Positions 4,846-35,463 of a stretch of DNA of 36,815 nt are shown here, piece after piece. Location of the stretch: positions 1 to 36,815 of the forward strand of contig JAEHDC010000015.1 in assembly GCA_016880595.1 (NCBI GenBank), read 5' to 3'. The position numbers and the translations under genes are program-made. This stretch comes from Candidatus Saccharimonadota bacterium. GTDB lineage: Bacteria > Patescibacteriota > Saccharimonadia > Saccharimonadales > EFPC-124. Numbering within the stretch: position 1 is the first letter of the stretch; each line of letters opens with the position of its first letter. Below the pieces are notes generated by a model. It worked only from the letters and a program-made list of their open reading frames with translations. It was not told the origin of the DNA and made no database searches.

Positions 4846-4922
4846 GGGGCATTAGCTCATTTGGCTAGAGCGCTTCCATGGCATGGAAGAGGTGATCGGT
4901 TCGAATCCGATATGCTCCACCA
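4846..4922 (+). tRNA. tRNA-Ala (anticodon GGC), CCA encoded
   Basis: Cloverleaf: GGGGCAT/ATGCTCC acceptor stem, anticodon arm CTTCC-ATGGCAT-GGAAG, GGTTCGAATCC T arm, ACCA end; upstream TGATATAAT. Confidence 0.95.
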
Positions 4923-5792: not shown

Positions 5793-5947
5793 CTCGACAG
5801 CTCCATTGGGCATTTGGCACCTGGGCCTCGTACATTATCTCCAAAATACCCCCTCACGCTTGCCTTCATGGCGGTGAGTTGTAAAAACAAACATGCAACG
5901 TGAATAGGGCAGCTAATAGAAATTGGCTGTCCAATGGAGCTGTCGAG
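5793..5947 (+). ncRNA. candidate structured RNA element 1 with long terminal helix
   Basis: CTCGACAGCTCCATTGG (5793-5809) pairs perfectly with CCAATGGAGCTGTCGAG (5931-5947); internal CTCACGC../GCGGTGAG hairpin. Confidence 0.5.
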
Positions 5948-7089: not shown

Positions 7090-9069
7090 ATGAGCGAAGC
7101 ACTAGTAACACATATGTCACCGTCTAGTCTGGTGTCGTATTTAACCAACCCGATGTATTTCAGAATGAGGTACATACTGGGGCGACGTGACACTCAGAGT
7201 TCAGTTACCGGCGTAATAGGTAAGGCTGGTCACAAGGCTCTTGAGCGTATCTATTCCGGCATGCCAGTCGATGAGGCCATCAGAGACGGCCAGCGCATGA
7301 TCGACAACATGTTGGACATGGAAATTAAGTACAACAGTACCATCAGCGACCGGGCCAAGCTGATTGCAGGCTATACTCGCGCAATCGGTTTTTATGTCGA
7401 TGAGTTGCCGCAGTATCACAAGATCATCAGCATAGAGGAAGCCATCCAAGAAGAAGCTGAAAGTATGCTGCACCAAGGCACCAATTTGCCCTCACCACTC
7501 AGCGTTCGCCTCGACATGCTTGTTGCTAACCAGCAAAAAGAGCTTGAGGTTATCGACCACAAGTTTGCCTACAATTACACCAACCCTGATGTAGACGACT
7601 TCAAACGCTGGATTCAGGCAATGTTCTACTATTACGCAGTCAAGGCCCGGTACGGCATTGCCCCAGCGCGTATACGATATGAGGAATGCAAGACCTCGAA
7701 GAATAAAGACGGCTCGCCGCAAATCAAAGAGTGGGTGTTTGAGTACGATGACCCTCAACACTTTGCAGTTTTTGAGCGTCTGTTTACCGACGTTATGCTG
7801 GACATGAATAACCCAGGCCGTTTGTTTTTGCCGAATCCTGGCGACATGTTTAACGGCCAAGATATGTTTGAGCTTTACCGACAAGACATTATGCCGATCG
7901 ATGCGCCGGTAGTGATAAAACACCGCACCGAGCAAAAAGAAATAGTTGAAAAACACTACACCGCTAGCGTAGGACAGTCGGCTGACACTTCAAACTACAC
8001 GCCCGAGGAAAAGATACGTGCCAAGCTGCAAGAGTTTGGAATACCTGTTGAGATGCAGGAGACTCACGTAGGCGCATCAGTTACGCAATACACACTCAAG
8101 CCCTCCAGGGGCGTTGCAATGTCAAAGATTGCCAAGGTTGGCAGTGACATAGCTATTGCGCTTGGAGCTAAGTCTGTACGCATTGAGGCGCCCATTCGCG
8201 GCACAACGCTTGTGGGCATCGAAATACCGAGCATTGAACGCAAACGCATTGGCCTTGAAGATAAGCATCTAAAGATGGGTTCACTCAGCGTACCAGTTGG
8301 AGTGAACGTTTACGGCGAATTGGTACGCAAAGACCTTACCGAGATGCCGCACTTGCTAATAGCAGGGGCTACTGGATCGGGTAAATCAGTCATGTTAAAC
8401 ACGCTTATTAAATCGCTTACTAAGCAGATGGCGTCAGACCAAATGCAGCTCGTATTGATTGACCCTAAGCGTGTCGAGTTGGCGGCATTTCGCAGCCTGC
8501 CGCATTTGATGTTTGACGTAATAAGTGAGCCGAGTGAGGCCATAGCAGCCCTCGACATGATGGTTGAGCTTATGGAAGAACGGTACGCACGGCTTGAAGC
8601 TACCGGTCACCGCAGCCTTGAAAGTTACAACGAAGAAGCTAGACAGCGCAAAGCGGCAGAGTTGCCGAAGACGGTCATTGTCATTGACGAGTTTGCAGAC
8701 CTGATGATGAACGGCGGCACTGAAAAGCGTATCACCAAAGTAATCGACGGCTATGGCCCTCGTGGCGGTGAAAAAAGTCACAAAGAGGAAAAGCCAAGCA
8801 TTGAGGCGCAGATTGTACGCATTGCCCAAAAGGCACGTGCGGTCGGTATTCATTTGGTGCTTGCAACGCAGCGGCCAAGTGCGGATGTAGTTACTGGGTT
8901 AATTAAAGCTAACATACCGACCAAGATATGCTTCATGACAACGTCAAAAACGAACAGTCAAATTGTACTGGATCGAGTGGGTGCTGAAGAGCTTACTGGT
9001 AAGGGTGACATGCTGTTTCTTGATCCATCTACTAACGGCATGCAGAGGCTACAAGGCCTTTACTGTTAA
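7090..9069 (+). CDS. PD-(D/E)XK nuclease fused to FtsK/SpoIIIE-type DNA translocase
   Basis: N-term: GKAGHKALE and LSVRLDML..KELEVIDHK (RecB/Cas4-like nuclease motifs). C-term: Walker A GATGSGKS, Walker B VIVIDEFADLM, AQKARAVGIHLVLATQRPSADVVTGLIKANIPTKICF (FtsK motor). Confidence 0.85.
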   Translation: MSEALVTHMSPSSLVSYLTNPMYFRMRYILGRRDTQSSVTGVIGKAGHKALERIYSGMPVDEAIRDGQRMIDNMLDMEIKYNSTISDRAKLIAGYTRAIGFYVDELPQYHKIISIEEAIQEEAESMLHQGTNLPSPLSVRLDMLVANQQKELEVIDHKFAYNYTNPDVDDFKRWIQAMFYYYAVKARYGIAPARIRYEECKTSKNKDGSPQIKEWVFEYDDPQHFAVFERLFTDVMLDMNNPGRLFLPNPGDMFNGQDMFELYRQDIMPIDAPVVIKHRTEQKEIVEKHYTASVGQSADTSNYTPEEKIRAKLQEFGIPVEMQETHVGASVTQYTLKPSRGVAMSKIAKVGSDIAIALGAKSVRIEAPIRGTTLVGIEIPSIERKRIGLEDKHLKMGSLSVPVGVNVYGELVRKDLTEMPHLLIAGATGSGKSVMLNTLIKSLTKQMASDQMQLVLIDPKRVELAAFRSLPHLMFDVISEPSEAIAALDMMVELMEERYARLEATGHRSLESYNEEARQRKAAELPKTVIVIDEFADLMMNGGTEKRITKVIDGYGPRGGEKSHKEEKPSIEAQIVRIAQKARAVGIHLVLATQRPSADVVTGLIKANIPTKICFMTTSKTNSQIVLDRVGAEELTGKGDMLFLDPSTNGMQRLQGLYC

Positions 9070-9097: not shown

Positions 9098-9271
9098 ATG
9101 AGAAATAAACAAAAGCCTATAAAATACATTGTGGACGAGATAAATCGTAAACGATTTCCTGCGCCGCTTTTTACAACGATAGTGACACACATTGTCAATC
9201 AAGCGGCGGTTGATGAATTCCGACGCAAGAACGGTCGGTTGCCGAGACATGTGGCGGAGGAGAAGCAATGA
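9098..9271 (+). CDS. small hypothetical protein (57 aa; absent from ORF track)
   Basis: RBS AAAGGAG; MRNKQKPIKYIVDEINRKRFPAPLFTTIVTHIVNQAAVDEFRRKNGRLPRHVAEEKQ; stop overlaps the next ATG. Confidence 0.6.
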   Translation: MRNKQKPIKYIVDEINRKRFPAPLFTTIVTHIVNQAAVDEFRRKNGRLPRHVAEEKQ

Positions 9272-9573
9272 GACCAGAAGCGCAGCAAATTTTGCAGTTT
9301 ATTGACGAGCATGTGTTGACTGATTTGGCGTCGGATGAATTGCAAGAAATCATCAATAATCTACCGATAGATATAGAAGAGGCGGCCAGTAAATTCTGCG
9401 AGCACTTTGGGCTCGGCGATTGGTTTTACGAGGCGCTGATAGCAAGCAATGTAGATATCAGCGCAGAGCTGATTAACATTGGCTTGCGGAAGCAAAAGGA
9501 GGAGCATGAGGCACTGAATGACCAGGTAGAAATTGATCACGATCTGCGATTAGCGCAGGGTGCAATTGTATGA
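9268..9573 (+). CDS. hypothetical phage protein
   Basis: 101 aa, ATGA overlap with the upstream ORF, RBS GGAGGAGAAG. Confidence 0.6.
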   Translation: MRPEAQQILQFIDEHVLTDLASDELQEIINNLPIDIEEAASKFCEHFGLGDWFYEALIASNVDISAELINIGLRKQKEEHEALNDQVEIDHDLRLAQGAIV

Positions 9574-9575
9574 GC

Positions 9576-9717
9576 GCTTTGCCTCTTATCAGGAGGGCTA
9601 GTGGTGATCATGAAGTAGGCTGAGAAAATAAAAGGCACCTTGCACATTCTGTACCTTAGCCCTATCTGCACAGATAGATATGTTTTTTGTACCAGCCCTC
9701 CTGATAAGGGGCAAAGC
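9576..9717 (+). ncRNA. candidate structured RNA element 2 (24-bp terminal helix)
   Basis: GCTTTGCCTCTTATCAGGAGGGCT (9576-9599) pairs with AGCCCTCCTGATAAGGGGCAAAGC (9694-9717), one U.G; internal GGCTGAG/CTTAGCC and CTATCT-GCAC-AGATAG stems. Confidence 0.6.
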
Positions 9718-9756
9718 CATATTGCCAGTAGTTCAACATAAAAGAAAGGATAAAGA

Positions 9757-9897
9757 ATGAAAATTATACGGACAATACGTGCCTGGGTGTATAGCCTTCG
9801 TTCGAATTATGCAGAGCACAGAACAATTGAGCGAAGGCTTGATAGTTTAACTAACGATGATTTTTTGGAAAGAGTAAACAAGGGGAAGCTTGCCTAG
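9757..9897 (+). CDS. small hypothetical protein (46 aa; absent from ORF track)
   Basis: RBS AAAGGA; MKIIRTIRAWVYSLRSNYAEHRTIERRLDSLTNDDFLERVNKGKLA. Confidence 0.5.
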   Translation: MKIIRTIRAWVYSLRSNYAEHRTIERRLDSLTNDDFLERVNKGKLA

Positions 9898-9909
9898 CGA
9901 AGCGAGGGT

Positions 9910-10040
9910 ATCGGCCAGCCGAAGCTGACATGGAGGCGCGAAAATGTGATACTGCAATCCGGTCGCGCCGGACGCTGAGCAAGATCGCTAAGTAGCGTGT
10001 CAGGATCGCTACCTGCATGTTTTGGCTTCGGCTGGCCGAT
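9910..10040 (+). ncRNA. candidate structured RNA element 3 (16-bp terminal helix)
   Basis: ATCGGCCAGCCGAAGC (9910-9925) pairs with GCTTCGGCTGGCCGAT (10025-10040); inner ACATG/CATGT, GGCGCG/CGCGCC and CGCT-AAGT-AGCG stems. Confidence 0.6.
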
Positions 10041-10061
10041 TAGTAATAAAGAAAGAAAAAG

Positions 10062-10322
10062 ATGTTAGATAAGAGTATTAGCACTACAGATAAATACAAG
10101 CTAAACCACAGAGCGAGTCTTGTGGTGAGGAATGTAAAAATCGTGAGCGAGGGTGGCAGCACCCACTACCGCACTGACTTTACGCTAAAATATCGTGAAG
10201 TTAACGATAAGCCGTTTGTATTTAGCGACGTAGATGAGGTTGCTGATTTCCTTGGTAATCTCGATATTGAAGACAATCAAATGTCATTATTTGAGGAGAA
10301 TTCGAAAAAGGCTATCAGATAA
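10062..10322 (+). CDS. hypothetical phage protein
   Basis: 86 aa ORF in the early operon. Confidence 0.55.
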   Translation: MLDKSISTTDKYKLNHRASLVVRNVKIVSEGGSTHYRTDFTLKYREVNDKPFVFSDVDEVADFLGNLDIEDNQMSLFEENSKKAIR

Positions 10323-10365
10323 TCAAGCCAAAATGTAAATTGTCAATTCACAAAAACGATGAGAA

Positions 10366-10505
10366 TCGCTGGTGCCCGATGCTCTCTAGAAATAGTGTTT
10401 GCGCCGGTAAAATGAGTGGTTAAATGGCGTGGATAGCTCGAGGTTATCCCGACGCAGCAGCCAGTGGGCAATGAGTCGTGCTCCTTGCGAGGGAAGCACG
10501 ACTCA
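10366..10505 (+). ncRNA. candidate structured RNA element 4
   Basis: TGAGTCGTGCT (10472-10482)/AGCACGACTCA (10495-10505) with inner CCTT-GCG-AGGG; further GGATA/TATCC and GCGCC/GGCGT stems upstream; 5' boundary uncertain. Confidence 0.4.
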
Positions 10506-10550
10506 CAGACTTAATTTTCATGAAATTTTAAAAAATGGAGGAGAAATAAA

Positions 10551-11130: not shown

Positions 11131-11184
11131 GCTATAATAAAGATAACAGAAGCGATCACAATATGTGGTCGCTTTTTTTATTTG
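11131..11184 (+). promoter_or_regulatory. late leader cassette A (TATAAT + hairpin/T7) before terminase operon
   Basis: TATAAT 11133-11138; GCGATCACA-ATA-TGTGGTCGC (11152-11172) + T7; identical over 54 nt to 13289-13342. Confidence 0.75.
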
Positions 11185-13288: not shown

Positions 13289-13342
13289 GCTATAATAAAG
13301 ATAACAGAAGCGATCACAATATGTGGTCGCTTTTTTTATTTG
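13289..13342 (+). promoter_or_regulatory. late leader cassette B before portal gene
   Basis: TGCTATAAT extended -10 (13288-13296) then GCGATCACA-ATA-TGTGGTCGC + T7. Confidence 0.75.
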
Positions 13343-20600: not shown

Positions 20601-20684
20601 TGCTATAATAAAATCATACGAACGTGGTCACAGTATTGGCTGCGTTTTTTTATTTACGGCCATTATGTGGCCGTTTTTTAATAT
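20601..20684 (+). promoter_or_regulatory. late leader cassette C before tail operon
   Basis: TGCTATAAT; ACGTGGTCA-N6-TGGCTGCGT + T7; ACGGCCA-N5-TGGCCGT + T6; 84 bp identical to the reverse complement of 35380-35463. Confidence 0.8.
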
Positions 20685-27904: not shown

Positions 27905-27956
27905 TGATATAATAAAAACAGCAGAAACGATCACTTGGTGGTCATTTTTGTTTTTT
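27905..27956 (+). promoter_or_regulatory. late leader cassette E
   Basis: TGATATAAT (27905-27913); GATCAC-TTG-GTGGTC (27929-27943) then ATTTTTGTTTTTT. Confidence 0.7.
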
Positions 27957-27970
27957 AAGGAGAAGTAAAA

Positions 27971-35379: not shown

Positions 35380-35463
35380 ATATTAAAAAACGGCCACATA
35401 ATGGCCGTAAATAAAAAAACGCAGCCAATACTGTGACCACGTTCGTATGATTTTATTATAGCA
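35380..35463 (-). promoter_or_regulatory. late leader cassette G before endolysin/fibre operon
   Basis: Reverse complement identical to 20601-20684 including TGCTATAAT and two terminator-like hairpins. Confidence 0.8.

Follow-up and report, generated by a model that had tools for sequence, protein, structure and literature searches.

A structured RNA element, here called E2, lies within the prophage part of the window, that is, of the whole 36,815-nt stretch of DNA that was analysed. We regard E2 as a real structured RNA because its fold recurs at the corresponding site of a related phage, preserved there by paired substitutions in the two strands of the helices. That E2 is a structured RNA is well supported, and it represents an uncatalogued family, so far of two phages.

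Genomic setting

The window is a whole contig of a 955-kb draft genome and carries chromosomal genes, including ligA, followed by tRNA-Ala(GGC) at 4846-4922 and then the prophage, with genes for an SLT-type lysozyme, a RecT-like protein, a PD-(D/E)XK-FtsK/SpoIIIE fusion, the small and large terminase subunits, the portal and the tail. The protein at 7090-9069, in which a PD-(D/E)XK nuclease domain is unusually joined to an FtsK/SpoIIIE ATPase, is encoded next to RecT in a recombination module. A search of viral contigs with this 659-aa protein gave no match; a 600-aa protein of the related phage (L128:1431-3233) is apparently similar in make-up. Five cassettes in which an extended -10 box (TGCTATAATAAA or a similar sequence) directly precedes a terminator hairpin stand at operon heads (Table 1), two of them identical over 54 nt and two over 84 nt in opposite orientation. 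Their layout recalls that of lambda pR' and other promoters that are followed at once by a terminator and depend on antitermination. The host chromosome also contains palindromic repeats of about 100-117 nt (CTGAATCTCAAAACC...GGTTTTGAGATTCAGG; L052:5625-5721, L052:15122-15232 and L054:785-901), possibly a REP- or MITE-like family.

Location and fold of E2

An earlier note, made from the sequence alone, had described 9576-9717 as a 142-nt noncoding segment between small ORFs on the transcribed strand. This is borne out, as E2 is intergenic, lying between an ORF end at 9573 and an ORF start at 9757, and the neighbouring ORFs of 101 and 46 aa are both on the plus strand and each have an ortholog in the related phage. 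The terminal helix claimed there is also exact to the base, its 24 consecutive pairs, about two helical turns, including one T.G, 9584/9709. The two inner stems that the note listed are both present as hairpins of an inner domain: stem A of 7 bp with one wobble and stem B of 6 bp with the loop GCAC (Table 1). The sequence 3' of 9717 is CATATTGCC.

The minimum free energy of E2 is -64.4 kcal/mol, compared with -37.6 +/- 3.7 for shuffled sequences (z -7.2; none of 200 shuffles equals it). As expected of any inverted repeat, the complementary strand folds too (-62.5 kcal/mol). When the window was scanned for helices, E2 scored 24 and two further elements, E1 and E3, scored 21 and 19, respectively, while 30 windows randomised by a first-order Markov model gave no score above 21.

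Table 1. Positions of E2, its neighbours and other elements in the window
Feature	Position	Strand	Remarks
E1, 155 nt, after SLT-type lysozyme ORF	5793-5947	+	ortholog L128:622-807; fold z -5.5
Upstream ORF, 101 aa, no assigned function	9268-9573	+	ortholog in related phage, 52% identical
E2 closing helix, 5' arm	9576-9599	+	24 nt; 24 pairs with 3' arm, one T.G
E2 stem A, 5' strand GGCTGAG	9618-9624	+	related phage: GGGTGGG
E2 stem A loop, 30 nt	9625-9654	+	holds conserved GCACCTTGCAC (9635-9645), then NTTCT
E2 stem A, 3' strand CTTAGCC	9655-9661	+	related phage: CCCACCC
E2 stem B hairpin CTATCT-GCAC-AGATAG	9662-9677 (9662-9667/9672-9677)	+	related phage: CCATGT-GCAC-ACATGG
E2 closing helix, 3' arm	9694-9717	+	24 nt; pairs with 9576-9599
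Downstream ORF, 46 aa, no assigned function	9757-9897	+	ortholog L128:4578-4718
E3, 131 nt, 19-bp closing helix	9910-10040	+	fold of 9893-10045, z -6.0
-10/terminator cassettes	11131-11184, 13289-13342, 20601-20684, 27906-27959, 35380-35463	minus (35380-35463)	

Covariation in a related phage

A search with the portal region led to one close relative, phage IMGVR_UViG_3300037470_001284 (loci L115, L128 and L129), which is 56% identical to the window in the portal region and 61% in the terminase. Its E2 (L115:478-611, equivalent to L128:4417-4550) is located between the orthologs of the 101-aa and 46-aa ORFs and has the same architecture, with a fold z of -6.6. In 0.98 Mb searched with a covariance model derived solely from E2, this element scores 71 bits (E 1e-14), against 14.6 bits for the runner-up, which is unrelated.

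Between the two phages, 34 of 37 pairs are kept, 12 of them changed on both sides and 3 on one side, and 3 are broken. In the closing helix, 21 of 24 pairs are kept, 8 by two-sided change, with 3 mismatches, in an ungapped alignment for which TTTGCCTCTT of the 5' arm is the anchor and which, being model-fitted, leans to structure. All 7 pairs of stem A and all 6 of stem B are kept, in each case 2 by two-sided change. While the stems vary, the loops GCACCTTGCACNTTCT (stem A) and GCAC (stem B) are unchanged in the relative, including GCACCTTGCAC and the NTTCT that follows it. For E1, all 27 pairs compared with the relative are kept, 6 by two-sided change (loop GGCACCTGGGCCTYGTACMTT). When E1 and E2 are pooled, with two copies of each and so few sequences but many changes, the kept pairs number 61 of 64, whereas 20,000 permutations keep 41.7 +/- 2.5 and at most 52.

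Homologous arms that diverge without compensatory changes had been named in the earlier note as grounds for giving up a functional RNA. The arms of the relative do diverge, and do so with the double compensations counted above; together with the conserved loops, this supports E2 as a functional structured RNA. The further argument that the wobbles favour RNA is weak when taken alone, and the case for RNA rests instead on covariation and on loops conserved in sequence. RNA is favoured over DNA by the strand-specific conserved loops, the intergenic location on the coding strand and the preference for G.U over A.C. On the mRNA strand, the helices contain 15 G.U and 2 A.C, an excess that is partly biased because the helix scan tolerated G.U. 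The strand argument is not uniform, since the minus strand of the relative's E2 folds better than its plus strand (-67.9 vs -54.8).

Comparison with known RNA families and classes

The earlier note recognised no family and proposed an Rfam search. Across the window, Rfam 15 detects tRNA only, with nothing above the gathering threshold at E2; a permissive search of 9300-10550 (E <= 5) returns two chance matches, both outside E2, and a search of the relative's locus L128 returns no match. Several classes were considered and rejected. There is no terminator-like site, with a short G+C-rich stem and a subsequent T run, at E2. According to ARAGORN and Rfam, the tRNA-Ala gene is the only tRNA in the window, which leaves no tRNA or tmRNA at E2. 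Regarding a bacterial Y RNA (YrlA) acting with Ro60, no match to PF05731 is found in the genome (86% complete) and none to E2 in Rfam.

T7-type RNase III sites are single, short, irregular hairpins in phage early mRNA. E2 shares with them the intergenic location in a phage polycistronic mRNA but is a 142-nt multibranch module. The put RNAs of HK022 are pairs of neighbouring stem-loops through which RNA polymerase becomes resistant to termination; E2, likened to them from their description, also has two adjacent stem-loops in a phage RNA upstream of terminators but differs in its 24-bp closing helix and conserved 30-nt loop. The intervening sequence in the 23S rRNA of Coxiella is bounded by a 28-bp stem that is cut by RNase III (PMC4990558). 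E2 likewise has complementary ends that form a long stem, an expected substrate for RNase III, and this stem is largely retained in the relative. In contrast to the rRNA element, E2 is placed between two phage protein genes, conserves its inner structure and loops, and is excised only as we infer.

A further phage-encoded RNA (L088:17535-17655 and kin) resembles E2 in its length of ~120 nt, closing helix of ~24 bp and phage context. It has its own promoter and terminator, an inner pseudoknot-like pairing and another sequence, and is not homologous to E2. A likeness seen in the E2 strand AAGTAGGC was dropped, as the relative has TTTTAGGG and the sequence is thus not conserved. This terminase-adjacent RNA is also found at L077:17413-17549 and in L078, L082, L083, L089 and L093-L101, in several prophages ~400 bp or less downstream of the large terminase gene. 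Its apparent inner pseudoknot shows a compensatory change from TCATGCC/GGCATGA to TGATGCC/GGCATCA, and against Rfam it reaches only a weak score for DUF805b, below threshold. A role in packaging is conceivable.

Sister elements and distribution

The three helix-closed elements of the window are all intergenic on the coding strand, and such elements start shortly 3' of a stop codon, with the following Shine-Dalgarno sequence beyond their 3' end. Beside the fold z values of E2 and its counterpart in the relative, E1 has -5.5 and a fourth fold -7.3. The conserved single-strand motif of E1 is TTGGCACCTGGGCCTYGTACMTT, an 18-mer at 5816-5833, and its ortholog in the relative is directly 3' of the lysozyme gene. 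E1 and E2 have GCACCU in common (GCACCT in the DNA); as the chance probability of this weak loop likeness is about 0.035, we take it as a hint only. No ortholog of E3 stands at the corresponding site in the relative. Conversely, a module of the relative closed by a 16-bp helix (L128:813-998), which directly follows the E1 ortholog and holds a tRNA-Met(CAT) gene (909-984) with encoded CCA, is absent from the window, suggesting that such modules come and go. Another intergenic region of the window, 10323-10530, has several hairpins (GAGTCGTGCTCCTTGCGAGGGAAGCACGACTC and others) and a fold z of only -2.0.

Searched over 393 genomes of the order, the E2 covariance model (R1) finds its own genome only; a match in genome G340 (E 0.05) was judged to be due to chance. 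BLASTN searches of the phage collection with E2, the relative's E2 and the window's E1 gave no match. The E2 loop pattern has 12 matches in viral contigs (IMG/VR), of which only the known relative proved real on folding, and one further match to the E1 pattern (L133), being without the architecture, was ascribed to chance. A 136-nt element with a similar closing helix (L039:334-469), carried by another prophage whose RecT is 54-58% identical, has no loop in common with E2 and is regarded as analogous to it. Inverted repeats in L028 and L011 are different from E2. Around more distant terminase relatives, 13 of 16 regions contain no helix scoring at least 17.

Proposed release and function of E2

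We hypothesize, giving the idea an even chance, that E2 is an RNA module in a phage polycistronic mRNA which is released by RNase III and acts via the conserved stem-A loop. As the operon is transcribed, the ends of E2 would pair and host RNase III would cut the closing helix. To judge from the sequence, release by the host enzyme is probable: an RNase III gene (rnc) is present in the same genome, and closing helices of 20-25 bp are RNase III substrates. The cut would free an RNA of ~100-140 nt and split the flanking messages, as for stem-bounded 23S rRNA intervening sequences. The freed RNA would then act through the stem-A loop, GCACCUUGCACMUU, in which a 3-bp mini-hairpin, GCA-CCU-UGC, may expose CCU and which most plausibly binds RNA, for example a Shine-Dalgarno-like AGGUG, or protein. 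Our first guess for the loop is pairing of CCU with a Shine-Dalgarno-like AGG and our second a protein partner, with antitermination as the main rival; within the phage, a search for the complement of the loop gave no target beyond chance. E1 would be a sister module with the related loop GGCACCU...GUACMUU, and the CCU in its GGCACCUGGGCC may likewise be exposed. A tRNA can function only once it has been freed, so the tRNA-holding module of the relative makes helix-guided release plausible for the group and would accord with its being a general device of these phages. More tentatively, and with doubts of our own, we suggest that E1, E2, E3 and the tRNA-bearing module are exchangeable early-operon cassettes of the phages of this lineage, each released by RNase III, and that E1 and E2, if no others, are trans-acting regulatory RNAs that use a GCACCU-type loop common to both.

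It is conceivable, if rather unlikely, that the elements serve mRNA processing or stability only, the helix being an RNase III site or an exonuclease barrier, as in T7 early mRNA, and the inner RNA waste. The location between genes, the long perfect stem and the host RNase III gene would all suit this, as would the gain and loss of elements (E3 and the relative's tRNA module). However, the inner hairpins covary and the loops keep their sequence, which counts against a mere cut site, since that would not need them.

We think it unlikely that E1, E2 and E3 act in cis in the nascent transcript, altering RNA polymerase in a put-like manner so that downstream terminators, such as that at 11148-11176, are read through. 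Such antitermination has some appeal because promoter-terminator cassettes (those at 11131, 13289, 20601 and 27906) lie downstream of the elements on the same strand, and stem-loops A and B of E2 are adjacent. Yet put RNAs are not known to have a long closing helix, every operon after 11131 seems to have its own promoter, and a single transcript would hardly need three different elements.

An element acting at the DNA level, either a MITE-like insertion or a cruciform or protein site, is improbable. The 24-bp inverted repeats would be expected of one, E3 and the tRNA module each occur in one of the two phages and are lacking at the corresponding site of the other, and the host chromosome has its own, unrelated palindromic repeat family of ~110 nt. 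Nevertheless, E2 has a single copy in the genome and the ends of E1, E2 and E3 are unrelated, so that a MITE or other transposable element was rejected; in addition, no target-site duplication is seen, the inner stems covary, and G.U exceeds A.C on one strand, by the partly biased count. Lastly, a chance inverted repeat without function, for which only the small number of homologs speaks, is refuted by the covariation at the same locus in the relative, the shuffles also counting against it, and has a negligible probability in our view.

Implications

No catalogued structured RNA was found for phages of this tiny-genome bacterial lineage. Owing to the covariation, the structure of E2 can be tested directly, and the conserved loops are a definite target for probing. 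Should release occur in the proposed way, these phages would pack small RNAs and a tRNA between their genes without separate promoters, with the helix as the cutting signal.
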